64,000 nucleotides of DNA from contig NZ_CP076853.1 in NCBI RefSeq assembly GCF_018987265.1, positions 1,984,001 through 2,048,000 of the forward strand. Direction: 5' to 3'. The stretch is from Rhizobium sp. WYJ-E13. Lineage in GTDB: Bacteria; Pseudomonadota; Alphaproteobacteria; Rhizobiales; Rhizobiaceae. The position numbers and the translations under genes are program-made. Below are positions 40,445 to 64,000 of the stretch, piece by piece; position 1 is the stretch's first letter; every line of letters starts with the position of its first letter. The notes under the pieces were generated by a model that saw nothing but the letters and a program-made list of their open reading frames with translations, did not search any database and was not told the DNA's origin.

Positions 40445-41941
40445 ATGCTTCAAAAACCCCTGCCCGCCGTCTCGGGCGAAAGCCGCGATCCCAATGACGA
40501 GATCATCGCGCTCGCCGCCTCCTGCCGCTTCAGCCCGAAGCGCTGGAGCCGGCTCGCCTGGGATTGGGGTGTCGGCGAACTCTCGGGTTACGATGGCCCC
40601 CGTCCCTGGCAGGACGAGATCAACGATCTGATAGGCGCCCATCTTGCCGACCCAGCTACCCGCTTCCAGCCGCTGCAGATATCGGTCGCCTCCGGCCACG
40701 GCATCGGCAAATCGGCCGAAATGGGCATGCTCTCCAACTGGGCGATGTCCTGTTTTGCAGACTGCAAGGTGGTCACGACAGCCAATACCGAGGGCCAGCT
40801 GCGCACCAAGACGGCGCCCGAGATCGGCAAGTGGTTCCGGCTCTCCATCACCGCCCACTGGTTCGATGTGCAGGCCATGTCCATCAAGTCGCGCGATCCC
40901 GAGCGCAGCGAAAGCTGGCGGCAGGATTTCATCTCCTGGAGCGAGCACAATACGGAAGCCTTCGCCGGCCTGCACAACAAGGGCCGCATCATCCTGCTGC
41001 TCTTCGACGAGGCCTCGAAGATCCACGACAAGGTCTGGGAAGTGGCCGAGGGCGCGCTGACGGATGAGGACACCGTCATCATCTGGATCGTCTTCGGCAA
41101 CCCGACGAGGAACAGCGGCCGCTTTCGCGAATGCTTCCGCCGCTTCCGTCACCGCTGGATCGGGCGGCAGATCGACAGCCGCTCGGTGCCCGGCACCAAC
41201 AAGCAGTTCCTTCAACGGCTCGTGGACGATCACGGCGAGGACAGCGATATCGTCAAGGTGCGCGTGCGCGGCCAGTTTCCGAGCCAGTCCGCCATGCAGT
41301 TCATCTCCGCGGATGATGCCGACCGGGCACGATCAGTCCACCTGCGCCCCGAGCAATATGGCTTCGCGCCCGTCATCATCGGCGTCGACCCGGCCTGGAC
41401 GGGCGACGACCCGACAGTGATCATGCTGCGCCAGGGGCTTTACGCGAAGCGGCTGGCGACCATCGCCCGCAACGACAACGACATCGAGGTCGCCAATCTC
41501 ATTGCCCGGCTGGAGGATGAATATCAGGCCGATGCCGTCTTCGTCGATGCCGGCTACGGCACCGGCATCGTCAGCGCCGGCACGGTCATGGGCCGCTCCT
41601 GGCAGCTCGTCTGGTTCGGCTCGACCAGGGTGTTGGACCCCGGCTATTACAATATGCGCGCCTATATCTGGGGGCAGATGAAACGCTGGCTGAAGGCCGG
41701 CGGCGCGATCGACCCGGCCAATGAGGCTCTCTATCAGGATCTCGTCGGGCCGGAGACCGTGGCGCGGCTGGATGGCAGAATCCAGCTCGAAAGCAAGGAC
41801 GACATGAAGGAACGTGGGTTGCCTTCGCCCAACGAGGGCGATGCGCTGGCGCTGACATTCGCGCAGCCGGTGGCGAAGAAGCCGCGTCACCGGGCGGGCA
41901 CAGGGGCGAAGGCGGCGGTGGATTATGATGTTTATGGGTAG
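40445..41941 (+). CDS. Phage terminase large subunit (packaging ATPase/nuclease)
   Basis: 498 residues. The ATPase half has Walker A SVASGHGIGKSAEMGML and Walker B IILLLFDEAS, with a coupling-type motif VFGNPTR. The nuclease half has the RNase H-like Asp residues in IIGVDPAWTGDD, AVFVDAGYGTG and NEGDALALTF. It appears intact although no portal, protease or capsid gene follows. Its last 74 codons (425-498, including the third nuclease Asp) are the segment that recurs at 43702, 45141 and 61358. Confidence 0.92.
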   Translation: MLQKPLPAVSGESRDPNDEIIALAASCRFSPKRWSRLAWDWGVGELSGYDGPRPWQDEINDLIGAHLADPATRFQPLQISVASGHGIGKSAEMGMLSNWAMSCFADCKVVTTANTEGQLRTKTAPEIGKWFRLSITAHWFDVQAMSIKSRDPERSESWRQDFISWSEHNTEAFAGLHNKGRIILLLFDEASKIHDKVWEVAEGALTDEDTVIIWIVFGNPTRNSGRFRECFRRFRHRWIGRQIDSRSVPGTNKQFLQRLVDDHGEDSDIVKVRVRGQFPSQSAMQFISADDADRARSVHLRPEQYGFAPVIIGVDPAWTGDDPTVIMLRQGLYAKRLATIARNDNDIEVANLIARLEDEYQADAVFVDAGYGTGIVSAGTVMGRSWQLVWFGSTRVLDPGYYNMRAYIWGQMKRWLKAGGAIDPANEALYQDLVGPETVARLDGRIQLESKDDMKERGLPSPNEGDALALTFAQPVAKKPRHRAGTGAKAAVDYDVYG

Positions 41942-41948
41942 GTGGGAA

Positions 41949-42016
41949 TGGCACGATACGGCGGCAGGCGTGGTTGGGTGACATGACCGGTTTTGTGCCA
42001 CCGGTGGTCATTGCGC
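41949..42016 (+). repeat. Terminase trailer repeat with ATGACC hairpin
   Basis: After the stop, ATACGGCGGCAGGCGTGG leads into ATGACCGG-N10-CCGGTGGTCAT, an imperfect hairpin at about 41983-42011. Similar trailers follow the partial copy at 45287 (45296-45356) and stand alone at 47335-47367. A weaker match is at 51092-51150. Confidence 0.6.
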
Positions 42017-42063
42017 GCTGATAGACCGCCCCTATAATCATTCTACTGCGAGAGGCTGCCGAT

Positions 42064-42483
42064 TTGAAGCTGGTACGAGTATCGAACCAATCTGAATGGG
42101 AGGCGTATCATCAGATTCGACGGCATGTGCTGTTCGATCTGCGCGGATTGTCTGGATACGACGATCACCATCCTGACGACAGAGAGCCGGAGCATCTTCC
42201 GCTGATTTTTGTCGACGGCAATGAGTACGTCGGTGCCGTCCGTCTTGATCTCGATGGGAACGGGAATGGGGTGGTTCGCACGGTTGCAATCGTTGCGGAG
42301 CGCCAGCGGCAAGGTATCGGCCGAGCCATGATGACCGCCGTTGAGAGACTAGCCATGGCTCACGAGGCAGTCAGGCTGGAAACCCACGCAGCGCCCGATG
42401 CAGTGGGTTTCTATTATAAAATTGGCTGGGAAATTATCGATGCACACCGGCCTAATCCCCTTATGGCAAAGCTTTTGAAATGA
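42064..42483 (+). CDS. GNAT-family N-acetyltransferase
   Basis: 139 residues with the GNAT core. Motif A, which binds acetyl-CoA, reads VRTVAIVAERQRQGIGRAMMTAVERLA (Q-x-x-G-I-G). Motif B is AVGFYYKIGWEIID. The start appears to be TTG 42064 with GAGAGG upstream. The substrate is unknown. It is the first gene of the cassette between the intact terminase gene and its first 3' copy. Confidence 0.88.
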   Translation: MKLVRVSNQSEWEAYHQIRRHVLFDLRGLSGYDDHHPDDREPEHLPLIFVDGNEYVGAVRLDLDGNGNGVVRTVAIVAERQRQGIGRAMMTAVERLAMAHEAVRLETHAAPDAVGFYYKIGWEIIDAHRPNPLMAKLLK

Positions 42484-42609
42484 CCGCCTATGGGCCGAGT
42501 AGCAATGCATCAATGGTTAGGCGGTGCTCGCGGCCAAACTCCGCTGAGGCCGGCGGGCTGTCGAATGGGACTGCACAAAGATCGGGAATACTCACTGAGG
42601 GATGAGGCA

Positions 42610-43035
42610 ATGGACGATTTTCATACGAGACGCATGATCCTTGAATTCCTGAGAAAGCACAGCTTGGCGGTCATTGCTACCAGCCATCGCAATGGAACGC
42701 CGGAGGCGGCTGTGATCGACTTCTCGGTGCGCGACGATCTTGAGGCCGTGTTCAGCGCTTTCAAGGAAACGCGAAAGTTCGACAATATCGCGGAGCGTCC
42801 CGGCGTCGCGTTCGTCGTCGGATGGAACGACAACGTCACGGTTCAATACGAGGGTGAGGCAACAAGGGTTCCTGCCGCGGAAATCGAAGAATACCAGGAG
42901 GCCTATCTCGACAGCGTTCCGACCGCGAGGGAGTTCATCGAGAGAGGGGCAGTGATGTTCAAGGCGACGCCGCGGTGGATTCGATATTCCGATTTCAACA
43001 AGGAGCCTCCCGAGCAAATCGTGATTCAATTCTGA
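42610..43035 (+). CDS. Pyridoxamine 5'-phosphate oxidase-like flavoprotein
   Basis: 141 residues with the FMN-binding split-barrel pattern: LRKHSLAVIATSHRNGTPEAAVIDF, then LEAVFSAFKETRKFDNIAERPGVAFVVGWND. Members are flavin-, F420- or heme-binding proteins, usually not true PNPOx enzymes. ATG 42610 was chosen because the longer frame from 42490 adds a low-complexity leader. It lies downstream of the GNAT gene on the same strand. Confidence 0.87.
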   Translation: MDDFHTRRMILEFLRKHSLAVIATSHRNGTPEAAVIDFSVRDDLEAVFSAFKETRKFDNIAERPGVAFVVGWNDNVTVQYEGEATRVPAAEIEEYQEAYLDSVPTAREFIERGAVMFKATPRWIRYSDFNKEPPEQIVIQF

Positions 43036-43115
43036 CAGACGCAACGGCTTCCGCCGCCGTCCGCGGGCGTCGGCTAAATCGTGACACCCGCCTTGAGGGC
43101 GCGCTCCGCGCGATT

Positions 43116-43520
43116 TCACATACCCGCCGACAGCGCTTTCAGCGCCTTGATCGCGCGCGGGGCATTTGCCGCCGGCATGAAGATGTGATCGTGGTAATAC
43201 CCCGCAACAACATTGGCGCTGATCCCTTCTCGCGTCAGTGCCGTTGCAAAGGCGGCGGTCAGGCCGACCGCCTCCAGCGCAGAATGAACATTGAGGGTGA
43301 TCCAGCGCATCGGCGTGCCGATGACAAATCCCCGTTCCAGCGCAACCTCGACCGGCAGGATCACCGTCACGCCCTCCGCCTCGCGAAACAGCCCCAGCGG
43401 CTGCAACGGCTGACAAGCGGCAAGCGCCTCTTCCGAAATCGTACAGAAGACGAATTCCCCCTCCTGCAGTACGGGGTCCATCGTTGCCAGCAATGTCGCA
43501 AGGTCGGTCACGGCCGCCAT
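43116..43520 (-). CDS. ACT-domain protein
   Basis: 134 residues with two ACT-like halves: LATLLATMDPVLQEGEFVFCTI and, later, VHSALEAVGLTAAFATALTREGISANVVAGYYHDHIFMPAANAPRAI. The second half is the ACT ligand-binding signature. These stand-alone proteins (DUF2241/ACT_7-like) have no known reaction. AAGGGGAAG precedes ATG 43520. The gene is convergent with the PPOX-like gene and is the last gene before the first terminase 3' copy. Confidence 0.85.
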   Translation of the reverse strand: MAAVTDLATLLATMDPVLQEGEFVFCTISEEALAACQPLQPLGLFREAEGVTVILPVEVALERGFVIGTPMRWITLNVHSALEAVGLTAAFATALTREGISANVVAGYYHDHIFMPAANAPRAIKALKALSAGM

Positions 43521-43701
43521 ATTCTTCCCCTTCGAAAACTGACGCAGGTCGTGCGGGAAGGCATTCCCATGCCGTCTACACCCATCCGACCTTATCATGC
43601 TTTCCGGAACCCTAGGCACCGACAGTGTGCTGAGGCCGCTTACCGGGCGAGATCAGATAGTAATTGAACACGCTGAGTATGCTGGTAGTCGATGGGTCAC
43701 G

Positions 43702-43925
43702 CCAATGAGCCTCTCTACCAGGATCTGGTCGGCCCGGAGACCGTGGCGCGGCTGGACGGCAAGATCCAGCTCGAAAGCAAGGAAGACATGAAGGAGCGTG
43801 GCCTGCCCTCGCCCAACGAGGGCGATGCGCTGGCTCTGACCTTCACGCAGCCGGTGGCGAAGAAGCAACGTCACCGGGTGGGGATCGGGGTGAAGGCGGC
43901 GGTGGATTATGATGTCTATGGGTAG
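43702..43925 (+). pseudogene. Terminase large-subunit 3' end, copy 2
   Basis: 224 bases aligned without indels to 41718-41941, about 90% identical, covering codons 425-498 and the stop. The frame is still open, and an ATG at 43692 just upstream would give a 77-residue peptide ending AAVDYDVYG. The left boundary (CCAATGAG) is abrupt. The trailer contains a partial ACCGGTCAT. Confidence 0.9.
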
Positions 43926-43967
43926 CGTGGAGATGGCGGATCGATTGCTGGGCCTGTCAGGAACCGG

Positions 43968-44765
43968 TCATGCTTGCGCTTTGATATGAAGCAGCCATGT
44001 CTCCATCTCGGCGACGAACTTCCTGTCGTGCGGCCTGCCAAGGTATTTTTCGGCCCATTCGCCCGTGACCACATATCGGCGCAACCAGGCCTCAAGTGCT
44101 TGCGCGTCCTCGCCCGTCTTGTCGAAAAAGCCAGAGAAATAGTTGCCGGCCTGCGCGGCTAGCTGGGCCATCTCCTCGAGCACTGCCTTCATCAATGGTG
44201 CATCGAAGAACGGCCCCATGACGACTTGGCCGCCACCCGTCGGCCGCATCAGCGTAAAGCCCTGCCACGTCGCATGCGAGGCATACTCGCAGAATAACTT
44301 GTACGCAGCGCCGCGCTTGCCTTCCTTGAAGTTATCGAAATTGTCGAGGAACCTACGAATCTCGATCGGTGCAAAAATCTGCCGGCGCTTCTTGTCGTCC
44401 GATTCCCGCCATTCAGTTATCTTGGCAGGATCGCGGTCGAACCAGCCCCATAAAAAGACAATCTCCATAACGTCGCGCAGGGTGGCCGCTGCAAGCTGAT
44501 AGTAGCCTCGAGTGAGCTGACCATAAGCCGACCCTAGGTCGTTGAATATCCGGGCGCCGAGCAGTTGGATGGTTTCTTGATCGAGGTCGTCGGCATCGAG
44601 CTTCGCAAAGAAATCGATATGATCCATTACCGCTTCAATGAGTTCGACATGATTCAGAAGCGCTTCATCGGCCTCAATCGCGGCAATTGACCGCTTGCGG
44701 ATCAACTCCTCGCCCTCATTGAGCCGTACCATGTTCTCAGGAGTTTTGCGGCGTTGGGCGGTCAT
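43968..44765 (-). CDS. Unknown helical protein in the terminase-copy region
   Basis: 265 residues, largely helical, with no recognised domain. Notable stretches are GSAYGQLTRGYYQLAAATLRDVMEIVFLWGWF and AAYKLFCEYASHATWQGF. The long helices with a conserved-looking R..E and a later H recall DUF5677/AbiV-like proteins, but this is weak. GGAAAGG lies eight bases before ATG 44765; GTG 44774 is an alternative. It stands alone between terminase 3' copies 2 and 3, so it is accessory cargo. A defence role is only a guess. Confidence 0.7.
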   Translation of the reverse strand: MTAQRRKTPENMVRLNEGEELIRKRSIAAIEADEALLNHVELIEAVMDHIDFFAKLDADDLDQETIQLLGARIFNDLGSAYGQLTRGYYQLAAATLRDVMEIVFLWGWFDRDPAKITEWRESDDKKRRQIFAPIEIRRFLDNFDNFKEGKRGAAYKLFCEYASHATWQGFTLMRPTGGGQVVMGPFFDAPLMKAVLEEMAQLAAQAGNYFSGFFDKTGEDAQALEAWLRRYVVTGEWAEKYLGRPHDRKFVAEMETWLLHIKAQA

Positions 44766-45140
44766 GGGCGGCACCTTTCCAGTTCAGCCGAAAGCGGCTA
44801 GCCTCTTCAACATCGTGGGGGCGACGAATTTGCGCAATGTAATCATGATCGGGTTGATCGGAATATTGGTTTTTGTGCTGTGGCGCCTAGGGATGTTGAA
44901 CGCGAGCGATATGCGCTGATAGTCGGCATGTGTCGCGACAAGAGCACCGCAGGCATAGACCTTAGCTGCCTCGAAACCGTCGAACCACGTCAGAACCGCC
45001 TCTGGGACATTTTCTACGGGCTGGCAAAATAAGAGCTGCTATCAATTTCGTGGTGGTAATAGCCGCGAGCCTGCGAGCACATGGAATATCAACAATTCGC
45101 CTATGCACCCCGCCCAGCCGTAGCTCGGTTATTGCAGCCC

Positions 45141-45287
45141 AAGGGAAGACATGAAGGAGCGCGGTCTGCCCTCACCAACGAGGGCGATGCGCTGGCGCTG
45201 ACCTTCGCGCAGCCGGTGATGAAGAAGGTTCGTCACCGGGCGGGGACCGGGGTGAAGGCAGCGGTGGATTATGATGTGTATGGGTAG
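45141..45287 (+). pseudogene. Terminase large-subunit 3' end, copy 3
   Basis: 147 bases match the last 49 codons of the terminase gene, from the CAAGG.AAGACATGAAGG block to the stop. There is one extra G near the start and one base missing in the CCCTCACCAACGAGG stretch, so the frame is broken at its head. The following trailer (to 45356) also matches that of the intact gene. The preceding gap 44766-45140 has no convincing gene. Confidence 0.88.
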
Positions 45288-45361
45288 CGTAGAGATGGCA
45301 ATGCGGTGGCAGGTGCAGCTGGGTGGCATGACCGGTTTGCACTAGAAGCGGTCGTTACTGC

Positions 45362-45401
45362 ATAATTCCTTAAATCGGAATCGATTTAAGGATAAAATTA
45401 T
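45362..45401. repeat. Intergenic perfect hairpin
   Basis: CCTTAAATCG (45368-45377), loop GAAT, CGATTTAAGG (45382-45391) is a perfect 10-bp stem, extended by ATAATT and AATTAT on the outside. It is AT-rich against the local background. The type is seen between rhizobial genes; it could serve as a bidirectional terminator or repeat. Confidence 0.7.
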
Positions 45402-45471
45402 ACGGCTGTTTGTTGCCAGCGTCACAATGCGAAAGGTGGGCATGTTGCTCGATCTGGAGCCTCAGCCTCCA

Positions 45472-45747
45472 TCAGGTGCGATCGTATGTGAACGATGTCA
45501 GCAGCGTGGTGACAAAGTTACTCGCCTTTTCCTTGACAAGTAATTCCGTCCATTCGTTCGTGCCGCGCAGCCGCAGGTCGGAATAAATGCTGTCGACCGC
45601 AGCCTCTTCAATGCGCTTGATGTTCGCCAAAAAGGCAGCCTCTCCGTCCGCATGATAGATGTCGCGGATCACCATCCGCAGGATTTCCTGAATAGCGATC
45701 TGCCAGGCCGTGTTGATTGCCTGGAGTTCGCCGGGGGTTTCTGGCAT
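45472..45747 (-). CDS. Small hypothetical protein
   Basis: 91 residues: AINTAWQIAIQEILRMVIRDIYHADGEAAFLANIKRIEEAAVDSIYS, a helical protein without recognised family. CGAAAGGAGCC precedes ATG 45747, a strong ribosome site that supports it being real. It may precede or be independent of the coiled-coil and cspA genes on the same strand. No function can be assigned. Confidence 0.7.
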   Translation of the reverse strand: MPETPGELQAINTAWQIAIQEILRMVIRDIYHADGEAAFLANIKRIEEAAVDSIYSDLRLRGTNEWTELLVKEKASNFVTTLLTSFTYDRT

Positions 45748-45918
45748 GGAGGCTCCTTTCGGTTTGATGGGGCTTTGGCAGCAGTTTACGCCGTGCCGGC
45801 GGTCGCAGATTGCAAGAGACCGGAGAAACCGCTTGCCGCGCCGGGCGAAGGCCCGGCGGGCCGGATGCGGCAAACAACGTGGGCTTACAGGTCCGATCGG
45901 ATGTCCGAAACCTGGACG

Positions 45919-46299
45919 CTAGGACCGCCTCGCCTTACGGTTGGCATAGCGCCGGTCGCGCTCAGCCTTGCGGATAGCCTCGTCTTCAAGCACCCGGGCG
46001 ATGCGATCTCTTTCCGCCACCTCGCGCGCTTCGGTTTCCGCGCGCGCCGCAGCATCGGCAGCCGCCTGCTGCTCCGCGGCCTCGGCCACCCGGCGTTCGG
46101 CCTCGTCGCGCTTTGACCGTTCGCGTTCAAGGCGCCGCTCTTCCCTGGCAGCGGCGATGGCCATGCGTTCCGCTTGCCTCGCCAATCTGGCGGGTTCGGC
46201 GACACTTCTTGCCGCATGATAGGCCTTCAGGAGAGCGGATTTTGCTTCCGCAGCCGCAGTACGGCGATCGGAAAGGTCGTTGTTTCTGGTGTTCTTCAA
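45919..46299 (-). CDS. DUF6481-like basic coiled-coil protein
   Basis: About 126 residues of Ala/Glu/Arg-rich helix: SDRRTAAAEAKSALLKAYHAA, then ARLARQAERMAIAAAREERR, ending DRRYANRKARRS. This matches the small DUF6481 family found beside cold-shock genes in alphaproteobacteria. TTG 46299 with CAGGA upstream is the suggested start; TTG 46314 would add five residues. Function unknown; basic ends suggest nucleic-acid or ribosome contact. Confidence 0.75.
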   Translation of the reverse strand: MKNTRNNDLSDRRTAAAEAKSALLKAYHAARSVAEPARLARQAERMAIAAAREERRLERERSKRDEAERRVAEAAEQQAAADAAARAETEAREVAERDRIARVLEDEAIRKAERDRRYANRKARRS

Positions 46300-46329
46300 A
46301 TCGTTGTCCTGCAAATCGTGTTGAACGAG

Positions 46330-46554
46330 TCAGGCCTTCCTGGCTCGTTTAGCGATGAGAGAGGCGGTCGCCGCCTCCCGGTCCTTCAGTTCTTTTGCAA
46401 GGCGGGCTTCACGAAGCCGCCGGGTCTTTTCGTCCCGGGCCAGAACGAGGGAATCGAGTTCCTCGACGGCGTTGTTGCGAGCGAAGAATTGTGATTGGGC
46501 ATTGCCGAAGGCAATCTCCGCCTTCTGACGGGATTTGCTGTGTGTCTGTGACAT
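46330..46554 (-). CDS. Small basic coiled-coil protein next to cspA
   Basis: 74 residues: NAQSQFFARNNAVEELDSLVLARDEKTRRLREARLAKELKDREAA, then a basic end. It is compositionally related to the next gene's DUF6481-like product. It starts 38 bases downstream of the cspA terminator, so a separate promoter or read-through is needed. Function unknown. Confidence 0.7.
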   Translation of the reverse strand: MSQTHSKSRQKAEIAFGNAQSQFFARNNAVEELDSLVLARDEKTRRLREARLAKELKDREAATASLIAKRARKA

Positions 46555-46591
46555 GGTCTTTTCCGGATTGGAGGCCGCAAGGTACCGCGGG

Positions 46592-46622
46592 AACAAAAAA
46601 GGCCAGGCAACCTGCCTGACCT
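46592..46622 (-). terminator. Rho-independent terminator of cspA
   Basis: On the minus strand, GGTCAGGCA-GGT-TGCCTGGCC (one G-T pair) is followed by six T. It lies about 70 bases after the cspA stop in the right orientation. Confidence 0.85.
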
Positions 46623-46689
46623 TGCTGGTATCATGCTCTCGACAGTGCCAGTACATCCGTGGTCAACGGAGAGCGGATACCGTGATGAT

Positions 46690-46899
46690 TCAGGCGGCCT
46701 GCAGGTTGCAGGCCGACATCTTGCCCGACTTGTTGTCGCGCTCCAGCTCATAGCCGATCTTCTGGCCTTCCACGAGCTCGCGCATACCGGCGCGCTCTAC
46801 GGCAGAGATGTGAACGAACGCATCGGCGCCGCCATTGTCAGGCTGAATGAAGCCGAAGCCCTTGGTCGAATTGAACCATTTAACTGTGCCAGTGGTCAT
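46690..46899 (-). CDS. cspA: Cold-shock protein CspA family
   Basis: 69 residues, one cold-shock domain. RNP1 is KGFGFIQ and RNP2 is DAFVHIS; the N-terminus is [16 protein letters not shown]. It binds single-stranded RNA/DNA as a chaperone. The long leader (about 140 bases) from the promoter near 47043-47073 is usual for cold-shock mRNAs, and a terminator follows. The C-terminus [12 protein letters not shown] is of rhizobial form. Several paralogues per genome are normal, so the exact number is not claimed. Confidence 0.97.
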
Positions 46900-47042
46900 G
46901 ATGAACCCTTTCATAGCAAGAAGAGAACCACAACGCTCAAGGCGCTGCGGACGGTGATAGCGATTTTTGAAAGAAAAGGTTCGTTCAGGGAGCGGTGTCA
47001 GACGCGCGATAACCAAAGCTCAGCAAGCAAATATCGACTATT

Positions 47043-47073
47043 GGTATATGGACCCTCCCTGTCGGGTTGTCAA
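47043..47073 (-). promoter_or_regulatory. Candidate cspA promoter
   Basis: On the minus strand TTGACA (47068-47073) and TATACC (47043-47048) are 19 bases apart. The predicted start near 47036 would give a leader of about 137 bases before cspA. The spacing is slightly long, so an overlapping hexamer may be the real -10. Confidence 0.5.
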
Positions 47074-47367: not shown

Positions 47368-47396
47368 GAAGCATCAAAAGCTGACAGGGCCTCCAA

Positions 47397-56289: not shown

Positions 56290-57792
56290 CTACTTCAGCT
56301 TCACGAGATCATCCGGCTTCCAGCTCTGGTCGAAAAATTCGGTGCCGGTGCCGTAGAGACGGAGCGCCGCGAGGAAGTTGCGTCCCTCAACCGTCTGTAT
56401 CCAGTTGCTGTCGGCAGCTTCCGCTGGCTTGCTCGGTCCGAAATAGAGATCGATCGAGCCGTCGTCGTTGGTCTTCACCTTGTTGAAGCCATTGATCGAA
56501 GGCATGAGCTGCTCGGCCGCCGTCATCGTTCCGTCGGTGATATTATAGGCCGTCACCGCCCAGAAGAGTGCGGCTGGCGGATGCGGAGGCAGGTGCAGCT
56601 TGTAAGAATTCGAGCCGTTCAGGAAGTCGCCGTCGGCATCGCGTATTGCAAACGGGTACTTCGAGCCCGCATCGAGGGTGCGCATCACCATCGCCGGAGC
56701 TGAAGAGTAGGCGATCTGGAAATAGGATGCCCGCTGGATGACATCGAGATAGCTGTCCTGCATCCATTCGGCGGTGGCGCCCGCCCATGTATTCACATAC
56801 TGCCGGTCCTTGTAATAGAGATCGCGCTTGTCGGGGCGTCCGAGCTGGCGACCTGCCAGGATCATTTTGGGCGCCGTCTCGACGGCCTTCTGCAGCGCCG
56901 CCGTCTGTTTGTCCGTCGGAGCGAAAGCTTGCCCCTTGATGATGCCGATCGACGCGAGCACGCCTCGCGTCACGGGATCGATCGATGCGACGGGCTCGTA
57001 GTCGACGAATTCCTTCAGTTTCGTCCAATAGGTGCTACCGGTCGGATACATCATGTTGACGGTTTTGCCGCTGCCGTCGGGGAATTCCATCGGCTTGACA
57101 TCCTTCTCCGAAGCCCAGAGCGGGTAGACGCGGGTGCGCTGCGCATTGACAACCGCAGGCACCGGGTCAGGTCCGTTTTCGCCCTTCGCCATGATCGTTC
57201 GGAAAAACAGGAAAACATTGTAGGTCGGCGACTTGAAGGCGAAATATCCCTTCGGGATTTCACCATCGAAATCCGGTGGCAGGAGCAGGTAAAGCCCGCC
57301 ACGGGCGCGATCCGGGCCGATCGCGCCGACATCGGTGATCGTGCGCTGATAAAAATCCGTGAACATCCCGATGACGTTCGGAGGCGCGGCAACGACCAGA
57401 GGCCCGTCCTTCTTCAGGTCGAGGTAGCTCATCGAGTAGATGACGTCGGCGTTGGGTGTCGGCACCCAGGTGCGGCTGTCCATCCTCTCCTTCCAGATCG
57501 GCAGGACATTATAGCCGCCACCGAACACTGCCTCCGACCCGTCCCGCATGCCGATCGTGTTCAGGGCCGGAATCGTCAGGATGTGGGCCTGAATGGCGTT
57601 CTGGTAATAGAGCTCGTCGCGAAGCTGCTCGGCCTCCTGTTCAGCCAGCCAGTTGCCATTGTTGATCTGCTCCATCAGCGGCGGGATTTTGGAACTGGTG
57701 TCCTGCGCAGCGGCAAGGTTGTAGGGCAACACGGAGCCTGAAAGGCATGCCGTCAGAGCGGCCGAATATGCGAATGCTGTCAGTCTGGTCAT
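56290..57792 (-). CDS. DUF1254/DUF1214 protein, copy B (Sec-type leader)
   Basis: 500 residues from ATG 57792, which follows GGGAGAAACG. The Sec signal peptide is LTAFAYSAALTACLSGSVLPYNLAAA. DUF1254 (PNADVIYSMSYLDLKKDGPLVV) and DUF1214 (YKLHLPPHPPAALFWAVTAYN) follow. It differs from copy A in using Sec rather than Tat, so the two may fold differently. It is the first gene of the DUF1254/DUF1254/MltF unit, with a conserved 21-bp site about 100 bases upstream. Confidence 0.9.
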   Translation of the reverse strand: MTRLTAFAYSAALTACLSGSVLPYNLAAAQDTSSKIPPLMEQINNGNWLAEQEAEQLRDELYYQNAIQAHILTIPALNTIGMRDGSEAVFGGGYNVLPIWKERMDSRTWVPTPNADVIYSMSYLDLKKDGPLVVAAPPNVIGMFTDFYQRTITDVGAIGPDRARGGLYLLLPPDFDGEIPKGYFAFKSPTYNVFLFFRTIMAKGENGPDPVPAVVNAQRTRVYPLWASEKDVKPMEFPDGSGKTVNMMYPTGSTYWTKLKEFVDYEPVASIDPVTRGVLASIGIIKGQAFAPTDKQTAALQKAVETAPKMILAGRQLGRPDKRDLYYKDRQYVNTWAGATAEWMQDSYLDVIQRASYFQIAYSSAPAMVMRTLDAGSKYPFAIRDADGDFLNGSNSYKLHLPPHPPAALFWAVTAYNITDGTMTAAEQLMPSINGFNKVKTNDDGSIDLYFGPSKPAEAADSNWIQTVEGRNFLAALRLYGTGTEFFDQSWKPDDLVKLK

Positions 57793-57885
57793 GACGTTTC
57801 TCCCGGAAGAAGGAAAGTCCATTCAGATAGATGACTGCGTATTCGATAGATTGCGGCGAAATATGCGCCTCTGGATTTTTACTGG

Positions 57886-57906
57886 CTATGCGATTAGTGC
57901 CAATCT
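57886..57906. promoter_or_regulatory. Conserved 21-bp site upstream of the DUF1254 unit
   Basis: Twenty of 21 bases match 58923-58943; the core is TTAGTGCCAATCT preceded by CTATGCG and one variable base. It lies about 100 bases upstream of the DUF1254 copy B start and abuts the stop of the first AraC gene. It is a candidate AraC-type activator site. Confidence 0.55.
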
Positions 57907-58862
57907 CAGAGCCACGTTTGCGACAGCTCCCTTCGATGTCGGGCCACCAGCGTTGCGCTCGGCTGTTCTCCGAAGACGTCGCGATACCAGCCCGACATAC
58001 GCCCATGCTCGCCGATGCCCCAGCGATTGCTGCTCGCTACGATCGTCGTGCGTTGGTCTGACAGGAGGTCGCGCCGGATGCGGTGCAGGCGCAGTCTGCG
58101 GACATAGCTGTTCGGCGTTTCGCCAAGAACTTCGAGAAAAGAGCGATAGACGGTACGAACCGAGACGTCGCAGGCCGCAGCAAGGTCTCGCACACGAATG
58201 GGTTCGACGAGGTGTTCGCCGACATAGTCCCGTGCGGACAGGATAACGCGTTCGTGGGGAGCATGCTCGATAAAAGCTGGAAACCCGTCGTCTCTTTCGC
58301 AATGAGCCAGCATCTCGCTCAGAATGGAACGGCCAATGTTGAAGCCGGGAATGGAGGCTTCTCCGCCGTGCAGACGCAGCATTGCCGACGAGATCGCTTC
58401 GATCGACTGGCCGCCCAACGGCCTGCGATGGAACCCGCCTCGCGAGAACCTTCCGACAAGCCTGTGCCCGGCCGCAACGGTCGCCGCCACGTAGAGCGTT
58501 CCCGGCGCAAACAGCATATCGACCTCGTCGCCCGGCCTGACGACTCCAACACAGCCGTTCCAGGCAGGGTGAAGGCAAACGCGCGATCCCTTCCCGCAAG
58601 AGAGCCCAAGCCCGATGGTAACGGCGTCCTCTGAGAGGACGCCCCTGACCCACGCGTTTCCCTCGATCAGGCCGCTGCTGAAGATGACGCCGTTGGCGGC
58701 CGAAAATGCCAACGATCCGCCAATCCTGCGGCCTGCCATCTGGAGGGTATCGAGCCGTGCGCCGAGCACGAGGTTCCGCAGGTCCTCAATCTCTCGCACT
58801 TGAAAAAGCTGCCAATGGTCCTCACGCGGTTCCACCGGCGGCTGCACCAGCACACCTGCCAT
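57906..58862 (-). CDS. AraC-family regulator, copy 1
   Basis: 318 residues. The C-terminal AraC domain (about 205-310) has both HTH motifs: VRDLAAACDVSVRTVYRSFLEVLGETPNSYVRRLRLHRIRRDL, then WGIGEHGRMSGWYRDVFGEQPSATL. The N-terminal domain resembles AraC_binding_2-like sensors. It resembles copy 2 in both halves, so the two form a tandem pair. ATG 58862 is used; TTG 58874 is an alternative. The likely target is the DUF1254 unit on the same strand. Confidence 0.92.
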   Translation of the reverse strand: MAGVLVQPPVEPREDHWQLFQVREIEDLRNLVLGARLDTLQMAGRRIGGSLAFSAANGVIFSSGLIEGNAWVRGVLSEDAVTIGLGLSCGKGSRVCLHPAWNGCVGVVRPGDEVDMLFAPGTLYVAATVAAGHRLVGRFSRGGFHRRPLGGQSIEAISSAMLRLHGGEASIPGFNIGRSILSEMLAHCERDDGFPAFIEHAPHERVILSARDYVGEHLVEPIRVRDLAAACDVSVRTVYRSFLEVLGETPNSYVRRLRLHRIRRDLLSDQRTTIVASSNRWGIGEHGRMSGWYRDVFGEQPSATLVARHRRELSQTWL

Positions 58863-58922
58863 GGCTGCCCCCAAGCTTCGTCGCAGTTCATGTGCAGTAT
58901 GCCCGGAAATGGGCGGCGACCT

Positions 58923-58943
58923 CTATGCGCTTAGTGCCAATCT
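58923..58943. promoter_or_regulatory. Conserved 21-bp site upstream of AraC copy 1
   Basis: Second copy of the element at 57886-57906, about 60 to 80 bases upstream of the AraC copy 1 start and overlapping the stop of AraC copy 2. One mismatch in 21. Confidence 0.55.
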
Positions 58944-59916
58944 AATGGATGACCATGCGCGGGACCGTGCGTTGCGCCTGAGCCAGGGTTTCGCTCGGCA
59001 ACTCGTCGAACATCTCGCGATACCAGCCAGCAAGCCGGCCCAGCTCGCTCACCCCCCACTGATTGGCGACGATTGCGATCGTGCAGGTCCGTTCGCTATC
59101 GCTGGCCAGTCCCTGCCTGATCCTGTGGAGCCGCAATCGTCGGACGTAGCCCTGCGGCGTATCATCGAAGATGTCTGCAAATGCCCGGAAGAGCGAGCGA
59201 CGCGAGGTATAGGCAGCCGCGGCAATGTCATCGAGCGCAATGGGTTCCGCCAGATTCTCCACGATGAAGGTCCTGGCCCGCTCGACGATCTTGGCATGAA
59301 GGTTGCCGTTGGATCTGACGGCATGGTCGTGCGGCGGGCGCCCCAGATGCTCGATCAATGCCCTCAACAGCAGCGAACCGCTGTCCGTTCGCGACGATTG
59401 GCCGTCGTGGATTTTTGCGAACTGTTGCTTCAGCCCCGCGCGCACCTGCTGGGACAAAACCCTGCCGTGGACCCGCGTGCCTCCGAGCGTGGCCCGGTCG
59501 AGAACAAGTTCTTCCTTGGCCGCCTCGTGTTCCAACCGGTCCAAGGATATCGTCGCCGTCGCATAAAGGGCCCCTGCCGTATAATAGGCGTCATGTTCGT
59601 CCCCACCGTGGAAAACTCCGACAGCCCCGTTTTCCACCTCCCGCAGCCAATGTCGGCAAGCCCCCTCGAGGTGCAGGACGGCGCCGATCGTCAGGGCACT
59701 TGCAGACAGCGGCCCCCTGAGCGCAACCCGGCCCTGGATGCTGCCCCCGCTATACACAATGCCCTTGTGTTCGCAGAAGATCAGGCTTCCGGTCATCCTG
59801 CCTGCAGACATCTGGGTGGCCTCGATGCCAGCCCCGTGCACTGCGTCCCCGAGGTCCTCCACCCTCGAGATGGTCATGCGGTGCCACGGTGAAACGATCG
59901 ACGGATTGCCTGTCAT
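58942..59916 (-). CDS. AraC-family regulator, copy 2
   Basis: 324 residues. The AraC domain (about 220-315) carries LDDIAAAAYTSRRSLFRAFADIFDDTPQGYVRRLRLHRIRQGL and WGVSELGRLAGWYREMFDELPSETL. The YVRRLRLHRIR block is identical in copy 1. The N-terminal sensor half is more diverged. ATG 59916 follows GGGGAGGG. It lies upstream of copy 1 on the same strand, 80 bases apart, and the two may act in cascade. Confidence 0.92.
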   Translation of the reverse strand: MTGNPSIVSPWHRMTISRVEDLGDAVHGAGIEATQMSAGRMTGSLIFCEHKGIVYSGGSIQGRVALRGPLSASALTIGAVLHLEGACRHWLREVENGAVGVFHGGDEHDAYYTAGALYATATISLDRLEHEAAKEELVLDRATLGGTRVHGRVLSQQVRAGLKQQFAKIHDGQSSRTDSGSLLLRALIEHLGRPPHDHAVRSNGNLHAKIVERARTFIVENLAEPIALDDIAAAAYTSRRSLFRAFADIFDDTPQGYVRRLRLHRIRQGLASDSERTCTIAIVANQWGVSELGRLAGWYREMFDELPSETLAQAQRTVPRMVIH

Positions 59917-60114
59917 TGCAGCCCTCCCCATCTGCCGGCGTCGATTGAAGGATATAGGTCATGTGCTCGAAAGGAGAATGAGGTCCTGGGGCGCGCAGTA
60001 ACCATGCCGGCAACCATGAATACGCCGCCCTCGGGATAGGTCATGACAACCGCCGGCGCCCGCCCCTGGCGGCTACCGCTGCAGCCTCCAGAGGAGGCAG
60101 AAAACGTGACCATC

Positions 60115-60144
60115 TTGACACGTGACTATTTAGTCACCTATTGT
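60115..60144 (+). promoter_or_regulatory. Leaderless promoter with embedded ArsR-type operator
   Basis: TTGACA (60115-60120), an 18-base spacer, and TATTGT (60139-60144) form a near-consensus promoter. The start would fall at about 60151, the A of the ATG itself. Between the hexamers lies a dyad GTGACTA-TT-TAGTCAC (60122-60137), where a bound ArsR protein would block RNA polymerase. Confidence 0.75.
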
Positions 60145-60150
60145 TGTCAC

Positions 60151-60930
60151 ATGGATGAAATCTTCAACGCCCTGGCGCATCCGCTCCGGCGCGAGCTTCT
60201 GGACCGCCTGCGCGAACGCGACGGCCAGACGCTGAGCGAGCTTGAGCGCGACCAGCCCGTCACCCGCTTCGGGGTGATGAAGCACCTCGGCGTGCTCGAA
60301 GACGCCCATCTCGTCGTGACCCGTAAGATCGGCCGGGAAAAGCTGCATTATCTCAATCCGCTTCCGGTTCAGGAGATCGCGGATCGCTGGATATCGCGCT
60401 TTTCTGCGCCCTTCGCCCGCACGATGAGCGACCTTAAAACCGCTGTCGAGAGAAGGGACGCGACCATGGCACCTGCTGCACCGAAACATGTCTGGGAAAT
60501 GTTCATTCGCGCCACGCCGCAAGAGGTGTGGGCCATCCTGACCGATGACGAGACAACGCCGCTCTGGCAGCACTACAATATGACCTCGAAAACGGAATGG
60601 GTCGCAGGCGGCGCCATTACCTTCCATGTCGGCGACCGCGCGATGATCGTCGGAAAGGTCCTTGACATCGATCCGCCCCGCCGCTTCGTGCATTCCTTCA
60701 GCGCGCAATGGTCGCCCGATGTCGCCGCGGATCCAGCCTCGCGCGTGACCTGGCTGCTGGAACCCGTCGGCGACAAGGCCTGCAAGGTGACGCTGACCCA
60801 TGACGATTTCGGCGGGGAAACCGCCACCAGCAAGGCCGTCGGCGGCGGCTGGCCGGAAGCGCTGTCGCGATTGAAGACGCTCGCGGAAACCGGCGAGCCT
60901 TTCTATGTGCCGGCCCCTGTGTCGGCCTGA
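60151..60930 (+). CDS. ArsR-type winged helix fused to SRPBCC domain
   Basis: 259 residues. Residues 1-90 are an ArsR-type winged helix (DEIFNALAHPLRRELLDRLRERDGQTLSELERDQPVTRFGVMKHL) without the metal Cys pair. Residues about 110-250 are an AHSA1/SRPBCC lipid-like ligand-binding domain (IRATPQEVWAILTDDETTPLWQHYN, PPRRFVHSFSA). The fusion suggests a one-protein sensor in which the SRPBCC pocket receives the ligand (inference). ATG 60151 is used; the frame upstream runs through the promoter and is not coding. Confidence 0.9.
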   Translation: MDEIFNALAHPLRRELLDRLRERDGQTLSELERDQPVTRFGVMKHLGVLEDAHLVVTRKIGREKLHYLNPLPVQEIADRWISRFSAPFARTMSDLKTAVERRDATMAPAAPKHVWEMFIRATPQEVWAILTDDETTPLWQHYNMTSKTEWVAGGAITFHVGDRAMIVGKVLDIDPPRRFVHSFSAQWSPDVAADPASRVTWLLEPVGDKACKVTLTHDDFGGETATSKAVGGGWPEALSRLKTLAETGEPFYVPAPVSA

Positions 60931-60976
60931 TCGGGAACGAACGGATGGTCGCTTCCGCTCTTATCGCGTCAAGCCT

Positions 60977-61210
60977 TCACTCGGCCGAGAATTTGACCGT
61001 CACCCCGCGCTGACGGAAATAGGCCTGCATCAGCTTCCTGCCGGACCGGTTGTTCTGCACGAGCCTGGCGGGGTCGAAGACGGCCTCTTTCAGACCCGCG
61101 CGCGCCAAGGCTGCCTTGAGAGCGGCAATATGCAGGTCGATATCCTCATTATCGGCCCGCAGTGACTCGTAAATGCGGTTCGTCGCATCTTCTACCGTCG
61201 GTTCGCTCAC
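60977..61210 (-). CDS. Small hypothetical protein
   Basis: 77 residues: EDATNRIYESLRADNEDIDLHIAALKAALARAGLKEAVFDPARL, then NRSGRKLMQAYFRQRGVTVKF. GTG 61210 has AAAGGGAGAG upstream, so the longer frame from 61381, which runs through a terminase remnant, is rejected. This conserved-looking helical protein has no assigned family here. Confidence 0.75.
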   Translation of the reverse strand: MSEPTVEDATNRIYESLRADNEDIDLHIAALKAALARAGLKEAVFDPARLVQNNRSGRKLMQAYFRQRGVTVKFSAE

Positions 61211-61357
61211 CGTTACTCTCCCTTTGTTTTCTGGCGCTTGCCGCCCATCTCGGCCCGATCCTATTAAGGCGAAAAATGCCTTCGTCAATCTGAGACCTGG
61301 CTGGAAAGCTGCGTTCGCCTCAAGAAGGCGGCACGCAAAGATGAAGGCGGGGTCATC

Positions 61358-61488
61358 TCCACGCGGCCTGCCCTCGCCCAACGAGGGCGATGCGCTGGCG
61401 CTGACATCAGCGCAGCCGGTGGCAAAGAAGCTGCGTCACCGGGCGGGACCAGGGTGAAGGCGGCGGTGGATTATGACCCGTATGCGTA
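61358..61488 (+). pseudogene. Terminase large-subunit 3' end, copy 4
   Basis: 131 bases match the last 43 codons of the terminase gene (GGCCTGCCCTCGCCCAACGAGGG onward), with small indels in the GGCGGGACCAGGG stretch and changes near the stop (GACCCGTATGCG). It lies 19.4 kb from the intact copy on the same strand. Nothing else in 61211-61860 is supported as a gene. Confidence 0.85.
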
Positions 61489-61860
61489 GCGTGGGGGAAT
61501 GGCGGATTTGGTGTGCGTTTGCGCGTGTGGCCCCCTCACCCTAACCTGACCGGGGTCGAAACCCGTGGCGGGGTGATCATTGAGCTTCGGTCATCTTTCA
61601 GGGTTCTCCAACCGTGCGCGCAAAGTCGCGTTCTCGGTTTCCAATCGCTGCGGTTGTTCACGGAGAGGAGCGACAGCTTGTTCAACCTGCTGTTCGTTGC
61701 AGCGCGGCATGATGTGCTGTGGGCAATTGGATAAGGCATGCCTGTTCTCCCTGCCCAGGCAGGCTCGCATCGTCGTCTCACGGTGCGAGCCCGGATCTAT
61801 CTTTGGATAGCCGAAATCAGTGCTTGGCATTTATATCCTTGAGATCACCGAGAGCAGACA

Positions 61861-62847
61861 TCAGTCCTGCAAGGCCCAGTCTGCGACCTGCCAACGCATC
61901 TCCCCACGATCGGCGACGACACGGCCGAGCCCAGGGAACGGCATGTGCGTGGCAGCGATGAGTGCGCCCTCCGACGCGGCGCGCGGAAAGAAGCGATCAC
62001 GCATGGCTTTCGCAGCGGCACGGTCCTGCTCAAACAGGAAGAACACGTCGGTCGCGGCCGGATGGACGACCGGAAAGACCATATCCGAAACCATGATCAT
62101 GCTCTTGCCGCCATCTTCGACCCGCACGCCGATATGGCCGGGTGTGTGGCCGGTCAGGTCGACGATCGAAACACCGCGCATGATCTCGCGCTCTCCGTCG
62201 ATCGCTTGGAGCCTCGGATATAGCCGCACGACCTCCTCCGTCATCTTGAAGCTCGCCTGCAGGTAATCAGGCGCGCCGTTGCGCTTGGCCGGATCGGTCC
62301 AGTGAGTGATGTCGCGACGATCGATGTAAAGCTCGGCTCCGGGGTAGTTGTTCTTGCCTCCCAGAACCAGCCCGCCCATGTGGTCCTGGTGCATATGCGT
62401 CACGATGACCGCGTCGATCTTGTCGGGCTGCAGACCGAGCGCGGCGAGTGCCTGTGGTAACTGTCCGGTCTGCCCGATCGAACCTGCCGCACCGGCGTCG
62501 ATCAGGATGCGGCGCTCACCATCCTCGACGAGATATTGGTTGAAGAGAAACCGAACCCCACTCGGCCGGGCCGTAAACTGTGCGCTTGCCGCCCTCTCGA
62601 CCTCGGACGCTGAGCGCCCCGGAAAGTAGTCATAGGGCATATCGGCATACCCGTCCGTCAGTGCCGTCACGGTGAACCGACCGATGCGGATCTGTGCGAG
62701 CGGGTTCACCGCAACAGGCGCCTTGGCAGCTTCCTGCGTCGCCGCACGGGCGGTGGTGTCGCCGAGCAGGCCTCCACCGAGGAGGCTTCCCCCGATGAGG
62801 CCGAGAGGCAGGGCGCCGGCAAAGGCGCGACGTGAAAGTTGAGGCAT
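61861..62847 (-). CDS. Exported MBL-fold metallo-hydrolase
   Basis: 328 residues. A Tat-type leader (LSRRAFAGALPLGLIGGSLL) is followed by a metallo-beta-lactamase fold. The HxHxDH motif is VIVTHMHQDHMGGLVLGG; later His in DLTGHTPGHIGVRV and Asp in MVSDMVFPVVHPA complete two metal sites. It resembles quorum-quenching or lactonase-like MBL proteins; the substrate is unknown. GGAGAAAG precedes ATG 62847. It is divergent from a LysR gene, which probably regulates it. Confidence 0.92.
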   Translation of the reverse strand: MPQLSRRAFAGALPLGLIGGSLLGGGLLGDTTARAATQEAAKAPVAVNPLAQIRIGRFTVTALTDGYADMPYDYFPGRSASEVERAASAQFTARPSGVRFLFNQYLVEDGERRILIDAGAAGSIGQTGQLPQALAALGLQPDKIDAVIVTHMHQDHMGGLVLGGKNNYPGAELYIDRRDITHWTDPAKRNGAPDYLQASFKMTEEVVRLYPRLQAIDGEREIMRGVSIVDLTGHTPGHIGVRVEDGGKSMIMVSDMVFPVVHPAATDVFFLFEQDRAAAKAMRDRFFPRAASEGALIAATHMPFPGLGRVVADRGEMRWQVADWALQD

Positions 62848-62982
62848 GACATCTTTCTCCGGGATCAGTAGCACGATGGGAGCTACCTCGAGCCCCTTGA
62901 CGACGCGGATGCTATGACATCCGCAAACAACGCGGTATCGTGGCAATGTGGAAACATTCTTCCCATTTTATGGAAGGCTTCG

Positions 62983-63879
62983 ATGGATCGTCTTGATGCG
63001 ATGGCGGTGCTATTGGCGGTGGTCGACGCCGGCAGTCTTTCTGCCGGGGCACGGCGGCTGAATACGCCGCTCGCCACGGTAAGCCGCAAAGTGGCCGATC
63101 TTGAACAGCATCTCGGCGTCTGCTTGGTCGTGCGCACCCGCCGCGGCCTCGCCTTGACGGAGGAAGGGCGCGCCTTCGTCGCCGCGTCGCGTCGTATTCT
63201 CGAGGACCTGGACGCGGCGGAGCGACAGGCCAGCGGCGATTATGGAGCGCTGCGTGGCGGGCTGCACGTGACCGCGCCGATTGCCTTCGGCGAGCGCCAT
63301 CTGCTGCCAATTGCGCTCGAATTCCTCAAGGAGCAACCCGATATCAACCTGCGGCTGACCCTGAGTGATCGGCAGCTAAGTCTGGCGGATGAGCAAGTCG
63401 ATGTAGCCCTACGGATCGGGCACCTGCCGGACAGCGCGATTATCGCAACACGGGTTGGTGTCGTCCGCCGGGTGATCTGCGCGAGCCCTGACTATCTCGC
63501 CCGCCGAGGAGTGCCGCGTCAGCCGCAAGACCTCGCCCCGCATGATGGCATAAGCTTCCAGGGCTTCGAGACCGCCCCGGAATGGCGATACCGCCGGGAC
63601 GGCGCGGCCTTCGCCGTCGAGCCGCGCCTCAAACTCGCAGTCAACACGACAGAGGCTGCCATTCAGGCTGCGCTGGCCGGGATCGGCATTATTCGCGTGC
63701 TTTCTTACCAGATCAACGAACATTTGCGCTCTGGGGCTCTGCAGGAATTGTTGGCGGAGTTCGCACCGGAGCCGCTACCCGTCAATGTTATTCACGGACC
63801 AGCCGATCCGCTGTCGCTGAAGGTGCGATGCTTCCTTGACTGGATCGGCCCACGCCTGCGCGCGCGGATGGCATCCTAG
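62983..63879 (+). CDS. LysR-family transcriptional regulator
   Basis: 298 residues. The N-terminal HTH reads MAVLLAVVDAGSLSAGARRLNTPLATVSRKVADLEQHL. The C-terminal substrate-binding domain covers about 88-292. The LSAGARRLNTPLATVSRKVADLE form belongs to the DNA-binding subgroup paired with neighbouring oxidoreductases or hydrolases. ATG 62983 is used since the extension from 62914 crosses the intergenic region. A partial dyad CTTCCCAT-TTT-ATGGAAG lies just before the start (about 62959-62976). Confidence 0.93.
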   Translation: MDRLDAMAVLLAVVDAGSLSAGARRLNTPLATVSRKVADLEQHLGVCLVVRTRRGLALTEEGRAFVAASRRILEDLDAAERQASGDYGALRGGLHVTAPIAFGERHLLPIALEFLKEQPDINLRLTLSDRQLSLADEQVDVALRIGHLPDSAIIATRVGVVRRVICASPDYLARRGVPRQPQDLAPHDGISFQGFETAPEWRYRRDGAAFAVEPRLKLAVNTTEAAIQAALAGIGIIRVLSYQINEHLRSGALQELLAEFAPEPLPVNVIHGPADPLSLKVRCFLDWIGPRLRARMAS

Positions 63880-63944
63880 CGTTCCGCCTATCAGACGCGC
63901 CTCCGTTGATGGCTGTCAGGCTCACTGATCGTCGATCGTCCTGC

Positions 63945-64000
63945 ATGACGACGCGCTGGCGCTGGACTTTGCGCAAGCTATGTCACGGGGTGATGTCTAT
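63945..64000 (+). pseudogene. Possible terminase large-subunit 3' end, copy 5 (window edge)
   Basis: GACGCGCTGGCGCTGGACTT, then TGCGCAAGC, and GTGATGTCTAT at the very end resemble the NEGDALALTFAQ...YDVYG part of the terminase gene with the middle lost. The match is short and is cut by the window edge. Confidence 0.45.

Follow-up and report, generated by a model that had tools for sequence, protein, structure and literature searches.

Displaced terminase gene ends and a dispersed podovirus-derived gene set in Rhizobium sp. WYJ-E13, a candidate gene transfer agent

The 64,000-nucleotide stretch of Rhizobium sp. WYJ-E13 DNA analyzed here (the window; contig NZ_CP076853.1, positions 1,984,001 to 2,048,000) contains an intact pair of genes for the small and large subunits of a phage terminase, terS and terL. 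The pair is preceded by a truncated copy of the terS 5' end and followed by serial partial copies of the terL 3' end, with gene cassettes between them. It is the first of at least four dispersed blocks of virion genes, an arrangement beyond the view of the sequence-only reading that originally described the terL copies. The blocks appear to represent a domesticated podovirus and a candidate gene transfer agent (GTA).

The comparison within the genus includes 148 genomes, this one among them; the handles L008 and G098, L009 and G101, L011 and G096, L012 and G134, L014 and G089, and L015 and G049 denote the same genomes. All positions, including those outside the window, are window coordinates (contig C1 minus 1984000) unless marked C1.

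Partial copies of the terminase genes

The features of the terminase region are as follows.

37232-37570, plus strand: truncated terS 5' copy (left scar), the first ~327 nt of terS, 95% identical to 39875-40212
37586-39604, minus strand: left cassette, a gene with a PG_binding_1 domain, shared with G101
39839-39858, plus strand: promoter-like motif TTCACCGCCGCAACCTTCTG, 55 nt upstream of position 39894, the predicted start of terS; its 16-nt core is among the four found genome-wide
39885-40439, plus strand: terS, terminase small subunit (phrog_51, E 8.7e-34)
40445-41941, plus strand: intact terminase large-subunit gene terL (498 aa), from which the 3' copies derive (phrog_2 and phrog_5902)
41717-41952, plus strand: terL 3' end with flanks, the source copy and reference for copies 2-4
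42007-43667, both strands: cassette A, with GNAT (42064-42483, plus), PPOX (PNPOx_N; 42490-43035, plus) and ACT (43116-43520, minus) genes
43701-43937, plus strand: terL 3' copy 2, 89% with flanks
43968-44774, minus strand: cassette B, one gene, also located directly behind terL in L013
45144-45338, plus strand: terL 3' copy 3, 84% with flanks
45339-61360, no strand assigned: cassette region C, composite
61361-61503, plus strand: terL 3' copy 4, 85% with flanks
61861-63879, both strands: cassette D, with MBL (61861-62946, minus) and LysR (62914-63879, plus) genes
63945-64000 and a few bases past the window end, plus strand: terL 3' copy 5, eroded, recognized by eye, abutting the right anchor

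A BLASTN search of the whole 6.9-Mb genome started with the last 224 bases of terL (41718-41941) identifies four places at E <= 0.001, the query itself included, all on the plus strand and all within the window. The match at 43702-43925 covers the full length of the query with 90% identity (E 3.8e-82), and those at 45144-45287 and 61361-61489 are both 87% identical (E 1.3e-43 and 3.4e-38, respectively). When the query is extended to 311 nt, the sole addition is a 30-nt match on another contig (E 5e-4). These results bear out the serial direct copies of the sequence-only reading, including the full-length copy of about 90%; the other two, placed there at 45141-45287 and 61358-61488, are both present with slightly different bounds. 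The identification of the gene as the terminase large subunit holds as well (phrog_2, E 2.7e-38; a Pfam search gives no match), and so do the domains of the GNAT, PPOX, ACT, MBL and LysR genes between the copies. The statement that all copies share a right end at or near the stop does not: the terL match ends ~11 nt beyond the stop in copies 2 and 4, and the homology of copy 3 extends 52 nt beyond it. The probable fifth copy (63945-64000) is undetected by BLASTN at E 0.01 and was seen by eye only, but at the same position, next to the same right anchor, a terL 3' end of 38-64 nt is clear in L010, L012 and L023.

Same-strand partial copies exist for 13 of the 352 gene-end tiles from the 221 kb in and around the window, and three well-separated copies for the terL 3' tile alone; the larger number for the gene at 75887-77233 reflects internal repeats. 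The terS 5' duplication had gone unnoticed in the sequence-only reading. Partial 3' copies were also found near the 97-aa gene in G096 and near a 214-aa gene in G101 and G089. A comparison of copy identities aimed at the order of cassette entry showed copy 2 to be no closer to the sister genome than copy 1.

At the other end of the window, the 3' end of an HlyD gene (19502-20944, minus strand) is repeated 7 kb downstream, at 12386-12621 (91% over 241 columns), and SRAP, GntR/aminotransferase and HD-domain genes lie between the gene and its displaced end. Given that HlyD is a host gene, this signature is not special to terL.

Variation of the locus among related genomes

A close terL is present in 13 of the 147 other genomes, with 88-91% identity of the 3' end in eleven, 87% in G129 and 85% in G130. 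Nine of the resulting 14 loci have a downstream terL 3' copy (this genome, G098, G147, G116, G096, L010, L012, L013 and L023); none was found in G101, G049, L014, L017 and L016, the sequence of the last of which stops 181 nt after terL. In the 10 loci with the right anchor downstream on the same contig, terL and the anchor are as little as 92 bp (L014) and as much as 22,083 bp (this genome) apart, with intermediate values of 1.6 kb (G147 and L023), 2.2 kb (G049), 3.3-3.4 kb (L012 and L010), 4.6-4.9 kb (G098 and G096) and 8.9 kb (G101).

The members of the close pair G116/L013, 96-97% identical here, differ by cassette B. In G116, terL is directly followed by cassette E, and in L013, the order is terL, cassette B, a 147-bp terL 3' copy and cassette E; the last 60 nt of that copy differ from G116 at one position. 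Other relatives show further combinations: G098 is without cassettes A, B and D; L012 has cassette D behind terL with one extra small gene between them; and the left cassette with the same join is present in G101 and absent from G098. In line with the sequence-only reading, the genes between the copies vary among genomes, and there are sites with a single terL 3' end, as in L014, where terL joins the right anchor within 92 bp. Empty or filled sites are seen in L014, G098, G116/L013 and L012.

A 646-nt stretch that includes the 97-aa anchor gene (C1:2048369-2048662, window coordinates 64369-64662; no Pfam or PHROG match) is found in 13 of the 148 genomes, which are this genome and 12 of the 13 others with a close terL. 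In G116 (a 3-contig assembly), it is located on a separate contig.

Cassettes and the origin of the displaced ends

The synonymous divergence of cassette D from G134 (dS 0.11-0.12) is below that of both flanks (terL, 0.32; the 97-aa anchor gene, 0.30), so cassette D is younger than its flanks and must have moved. In cassette A, the dS values for PPOX and ACT against G101 are 0.22 and 0.14, compared to 0.37 for terL. The gene of cassette B has no match in Pfam, PHROG or PADLOC. Three pieces of region C (45919-47159, 51131-53067 and 60758-61489) are adjacent in G098, 0-83 bp apart.

Readings of the cassettes as a defence island or as plasmid-derived were considered and rejected. PADLOC applied to nine cassette proteins yields only short partial MBL matches (best E 2.7e-8, 54 residues). 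Parts of 41600-46000 match 349 plasmid records, none at 80% coverage or more among the matches listed; among those listed (20 of the 349), relatives of GNAT and PPOX are encoded on rhizobial plasmids.

The terS region offers a view of both sides of a junction. The sequence upstream of the left scar is 96% identical to the sister genome G098; upstream of the intact terS, the identity is 74% to G098 and 81-84% to G101 and G147, and from inside the gene onward, it rises to 95-99% to G098 over the stretch compared. On one side, this mosaic junction therefore resembles homologous recombination within the phage gene, and on the other, a join made inside the resident copy. The terS fragment and the left cassette look as if they travel as a unit, judging from their distribution in G101 and G098; at 89% identity, any such transfer would be old.

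The sequence-only reading likened the locus to an island inserted at one 3' end. Islands at tRNA 3' ends restore the gene end on one side and displace the old end on the other. The terL locus resembles them in having the intact gene on the left and the displaced ends on the right, on one strand, which is what site-specific integration of small elements at the terL 3' end would produce. It differs from them in the lack of a nearby integrase, in the variable lengths of the displaced ends (~40 to 236 nt) and in having a protein-coding phage gene as the target. As that reading had noted, no integrase is visible: C1:1944001-2164999 contains no match to Phage_integrase (PF00589), the tyrosine family being the only recombinase family searched, and the nearest of the six places in the genome (C1:2343760) lies 179 kb past the end of the 221-kb region and 296 kb past that of the window. 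The absence of a tyrosine integrase and the variable displaced lengths speak against tRNA-like integration; the similar partial copies of terS 5', HlyD 3' and two further genes make an integration system specific for terL very unlikely. Direct repeats on one strand would also result if the terL region had been duplicated in tandem and then shaped by deletion and drift, with no gene gain, but this scenario is scarcely credible given that cassette gene content differs by genome and cassette D is younger than both flanks, and it is contradicted by the G116/L013 pair and L014.

Homologous recombination, the alternative already raised in the sequence-only reading, fits the differing displaced ends and the terS and HlyD cases better than site-specific integration, and the mosaic junction together with the low dS in cassettes favours it. 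A cassette would enter by homologous recombination in a conserved phage gene, and its far side would be joined non-homologously inside the old gene copy, leaving a displaced 3' or 5' fragment. Once flanked by such fragments, the cassette could be transferred to a different terL end through homologous recombination at its two borders, and it could be lost by recombination between the direct repeats. The terL copies can accordingly be read as recording the gain and the loss of genes at the border of the first phage block.

The dispersed virion gene set

A search started with the portal protein from the Mesorhizobium locus L021 identifies an intact 566-aa homologue (68%) on the same strand, ~67 kb downstream of terL. 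It belongs to the portal block, which is listed below with the other blocks outside the window.

109300-114149, same strand as terL: portal block, encoding a 77-aa protein, portal (PF12236), a 117-aa protein, protease (phrog_458), capsid (PF20911), and 136-aa and 107-aa proteins
114328-116142: esterase-like gene, with a paralogue at 122156-123754
159832-166058, same strand: tail block, encoding tail proteins (phrog_394 and phrog_376), internal virion proteins (phrog_308 and phrog_418) and an endolysin-like 844-aa protein
170175-171773, same strand: tail fibre

By PHROG and Pfam, the set comprises terS, terL, portal, capsid, tail, internal virion and fibre proteins, with a protease/scaffold gene in the portal block and tail tubular A and B in the tail block. 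The genomes with close relatives of terL, of the portal and of tail B are the same ones, 14 of the 148. For the portal, 20 genomes have a match, 14 of them at 96-100% (this genome plus the 13 others with a close terL, the latter at 96-99%), five at 67-68% and one at 37%; tail B (C-terminal 517 aa) is found in 24, 14 at 92-100% (92-97% in the 13 others), five at 74-75% and five at 28-36%.

Seven genomes have the terS-terL, portal and tail blocks on one contig, in one order and on one strand throughout, with ordinary bacterial genes in the gaps. From terS to the end of the fibre region, these at least four collinear blocks span 97-146 kb, and with 87.5-136 kb between terL and tail B, they do not form a contiguous packageable prophage. 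The gaps between terL and the portal block and between the portal and tail blocks are as follows.

This genome: 67 and 46 kb
G098: 48 and 44 kb
G096: 43 and 55 kb
G147: 57 and 73 kb
G101: 42 and 41 kb
G116: 52 and 66 kb
G089: 27 and 54 kb

Because three of these seven assemblies consist of three contigs only, draft assembly is unlikely to have produced the dispersed arrangement. Less dispersed forms exist as well. The phage-like contig L131 (45.9 kb) has gaps of 0.35 and 2.7 kb, three compact chromosomal relatives have gaps of 2.4-2.6 and 5.0-7.8 kb, and L019 has GNAT and other ordinary genes in a 6.4-kb gap between terL and the portal block, so that, by this gap, four forms can be placed side by side up to the exploded loci at 27-67 kb.

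Motif shared by the blocks

The pattern TCASCSCSRCAACCWT is present upstream of terS, of the portal block, of tail A and of the fibre gene. As a degenerate 16-nt motif, it has exactly four matches in 6.9 Mb, one before each of the four blocks, and the reversed control pattern has none in the genome. The pattern was written from these four sites, and the independent part of the result is the absence of other matches, plus the distant loci. In the spans of the relatives, the strict motif occurs seven times (twice each in G098 and G116, once each in G096, G101 and G049), always before a block.

A matrix was trained on the four sites and on the sites of seven relatives, the high scores of which are thus not independent. 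Upstream of the portal block, its highest-scoring site is at -107 to -123, and upstream of tail A and the fibre gene alike, at -54 to -57 (7 of 7 relatives each). Before terS, the score exceeds 18 in four of the six genomes with terS in the span; in G116, it is 12 at -55, and in G096, 12.7 elsewhere. The compact loci score 13.6-23 before tail A (3 of 3) and 18 and 5 before terS (two found). Among 12 distant loci outside the training set, scanned without a computed chance rate, 10 have their top score no more than 400 nt upstream of terS, the 77-aa gene or tail A. The motif is probably phage-derived and kept while the blocks were driven apart, and it is a putative promoter.

Selection on the virion genes

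The terL reading frame is open in all 14 genomes, and the median pairwise dN/dS of the 13 genes tested is 0.035-0.33. The values for individual genes are as follows.

Capsid (major capsid protein, MCP): 0.035, 13 rows (not recovered from G134)
Portal: 0.063, 13 rows (G134 dropped for a stop)
Tail B: 0.086, 14 rows
170-aa gene: 0.091, 13 rows (G049 dropped)
terL: 0.105, 14 rows
Protease: 0.22, 13 rows
107-aa gene: 0.33, 12 rows (G089 dropped)

For ten ordinary genes within the span (4-8 genomes each), the medians are 0.076-0.194. Near the tips of the tree, inheritance appears vertical; further back, it appears to have involved exchange or loss.

Comparison with known systems

The features listed for GTAs are particle proteins of tailed-phage origin, packaging of mostly random host DNA, full endogenisation, often at several loci, a genome too large to be packaged whole, mostly vertical inheritance with co-diversification, and delivery of the DNA to other cells, and the alphaproteobacterial GTAs are described as two types, the numerous RcGTA-like ones and BaGTA (PMC9662315). 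As in RcGTA (Rhodogtaviriformidae) and BaGTA (Bartogtaviriformidae) in that account, tailed-phage virion genes are fixed in the chromosome and evolve slowly, and as in RcGTA, they occupy several loci. Endogenisation is indicated by the four or more blocks in seven genomes and by the left host marker, which lies within ~35 kb of terL on the same contig in nine of the 14 genomes and on another contig in five. Unlike both, going by their descriptions, the Rhizobium set is podoviral (PF12236 portal, PF20911 capsid, tail tubular proteins). A further source calls the portal and terminase of Bartonella lambda-like and gives ~15 kb of genes as usual for GTAs (PMC2697382), in contrast to the 97-146 kb of the Rhizobium locus, with bacterial genes between the blocks.

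The closest compact counterparts are podoviruses with PF12236 and PF20911 proteins, including 45-49 kb IMG/VR contigs, which have the same genes in the same order and motif-like sites before the blocks. The capsid of the phage-like contig L131 is 88% identical to that of the Rhizobium locus, and the contig differs in its compact terL-portal arrangement. IMG/VR contigs with a related capsid reach at most 48.8 kb, and the phage genomes among the 30 INPHARED matches listed are 38-63 kb; the locus is larger, so that one particle probably cannot carry it. Free phages as a source of the close terL were rejected, as INPHARED has no record above 60% (at 60% identity or more, 0 of 91 for capsid and 0 of 368 for TerL). 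The 97-100% capsids in IMG/VR are on contigs of at most 21 kb, and the seven examined carry the portal block without terL or the tail block, so that they look like pieces of the bacterial locus. The vTRX32-1 group, temperate Autographiviridae of Rhizobium leguminosarum, likewise consists of podoviral prophages in Rhizobium but, by its description, of compact temperate phages with a phage RNA polymerase (PMC8631192). Among the papers listed in a literature search, none names such a locus in its title or the start of its abstract, which is not proof that it is unpublished.

A candidate gene transfer agent of podoviral origin

The reading best compatible with these observations, to which we assign a probability of about 0.6, is that the locus is a domesticated podovirus and a candidate GTA, with the blocks as homology arms for cassette exchange. 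In some Rhizobium species, the particle genes of a short-tailed phage have stayed largely intact, although dispersed over ~100-150 kb of chromosome, and they may now make particles loaded with bacterial DNA. The scattered blocks would be expressed together and assemble one particle; unable to hold its own locus, this particle would package host DNA, as GTAs do, and particle-borne DNA from other strains would supply the cassettes. A more specific version, which we put forward tentatively and would not bet on, is that a GTA of separate, podoviral origin has spread its gene set over more than 100 kb by its own traffic, the blocks serving as universal arms, the terS and terL ends as ready-made ones, and the shared promoter-like site uniting the blocks.

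Several observations weigh against the favoured reading. Some virion genes evolve faster than the rest (the 107-aa gene and the protease, see above), the G134 portal has one in-frame TGA, and the stretches matching the 107-aa gene in G089 and the 170-aa gene in G049 lack an open frame. In 14 genomes, the phage-gene and host-gene trees have 5 of 11 splits in common, which comprise all five sister pairs, and by the approximately unbiased (AU) test, neither topology is acceptable for the data of the other tree. On the tree of the left host marker (23 genomes), the terSL label needs five changes, one of which is forced by well-supported branches. No strict motif occurs in the spans of G147 and G089 or in the three compact loci, the compact loci have no motif before the fibre gene (score about 0), and many distant-locus scores are modest, within the maxima of shuffled sequence ten times longer (11.9-18.4). 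The divergence of PPOX/ACT, cassette B and the left cassette is nearer to that of terL, and old vertical inheritance with repeated loss is also possible for these. A search for a T7-type RNA polymerase was silent, as were its controls.

Some of these points would suit a decaying prophage broken by neutral insertions and kept by chance, with the terL copies as debris and nothing made. The insertions are many and large, terS and the small genes evolve faster, and the G134 portal contains a stop. However, terL, portal and tail B are kept in 14 of 14 genomes at a median dS of 0.37-0.42 with low dN/dS, gene order and strand are kept in seven genomes, and 7 of 7 relatives retain the motif ahead of the portal, tail and fibre blocks, which renders mere decay unlikely. 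The conservation of virion genes could also reflect a particle with another use, such as killing related strains or protein delivery; the endolysin-like 844-aa protein and the fast-evolving esterase and fibre genes are in line with this idea. We regard it as improbable because terminase, portal and capsid are among the best conserved genes. To our knowledge, a killing device would not need these three.

If the domesticated podovirus is indeed a GTA, it would be a third, podoviral case in Alphaproteobacteria, in Rhizobium, where the origin of a GTA could be compared directly. The terminase scars would then be a layered record of gene gain, and the four-site motif provides a handle on whether the scattered phage genes act as one regulon.

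Additional observations

The compact relatives L096-L097, L109-L110 and L115-L116 (G109, G146 and G081), located at another chromosomal place, also look domesticated; their capsids are 98-100% identical (aa) across three species, and small insertions separate terL from portal. In L024 (Rhizobium sp. J15), the N-terminus of a 610-aa protein encoded between terL and portal (12348-14180) resembles, by eye, that of an OLD-type ATPase. A sample of 394 genomes from across the family contains the capsid in three, this genome included; it holds none of the 13 other carriers and so says little about spread. A 64% capsid relative is encoded on contig 34 of G257 (109113-110141), a 1.5-Mb genome from another genus of the family.

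In this genome and in G089, a block of other genes lies between the two esterase-like paralogues (76% nt); in the six further relatives examined, the match is limited to ~260 nt of the first paralogue. In addition, there are intergenic repeats of ~80-110 bp in two families, some at block edges and partly outside the window.

Family 1: 33067-33231, 86292-86474, 89425-89515, 137529-137589 and 159570-159770
Family 2: 30855-30914, 47155-47262, 105778-105886, 114166-114280 and 145187-145300

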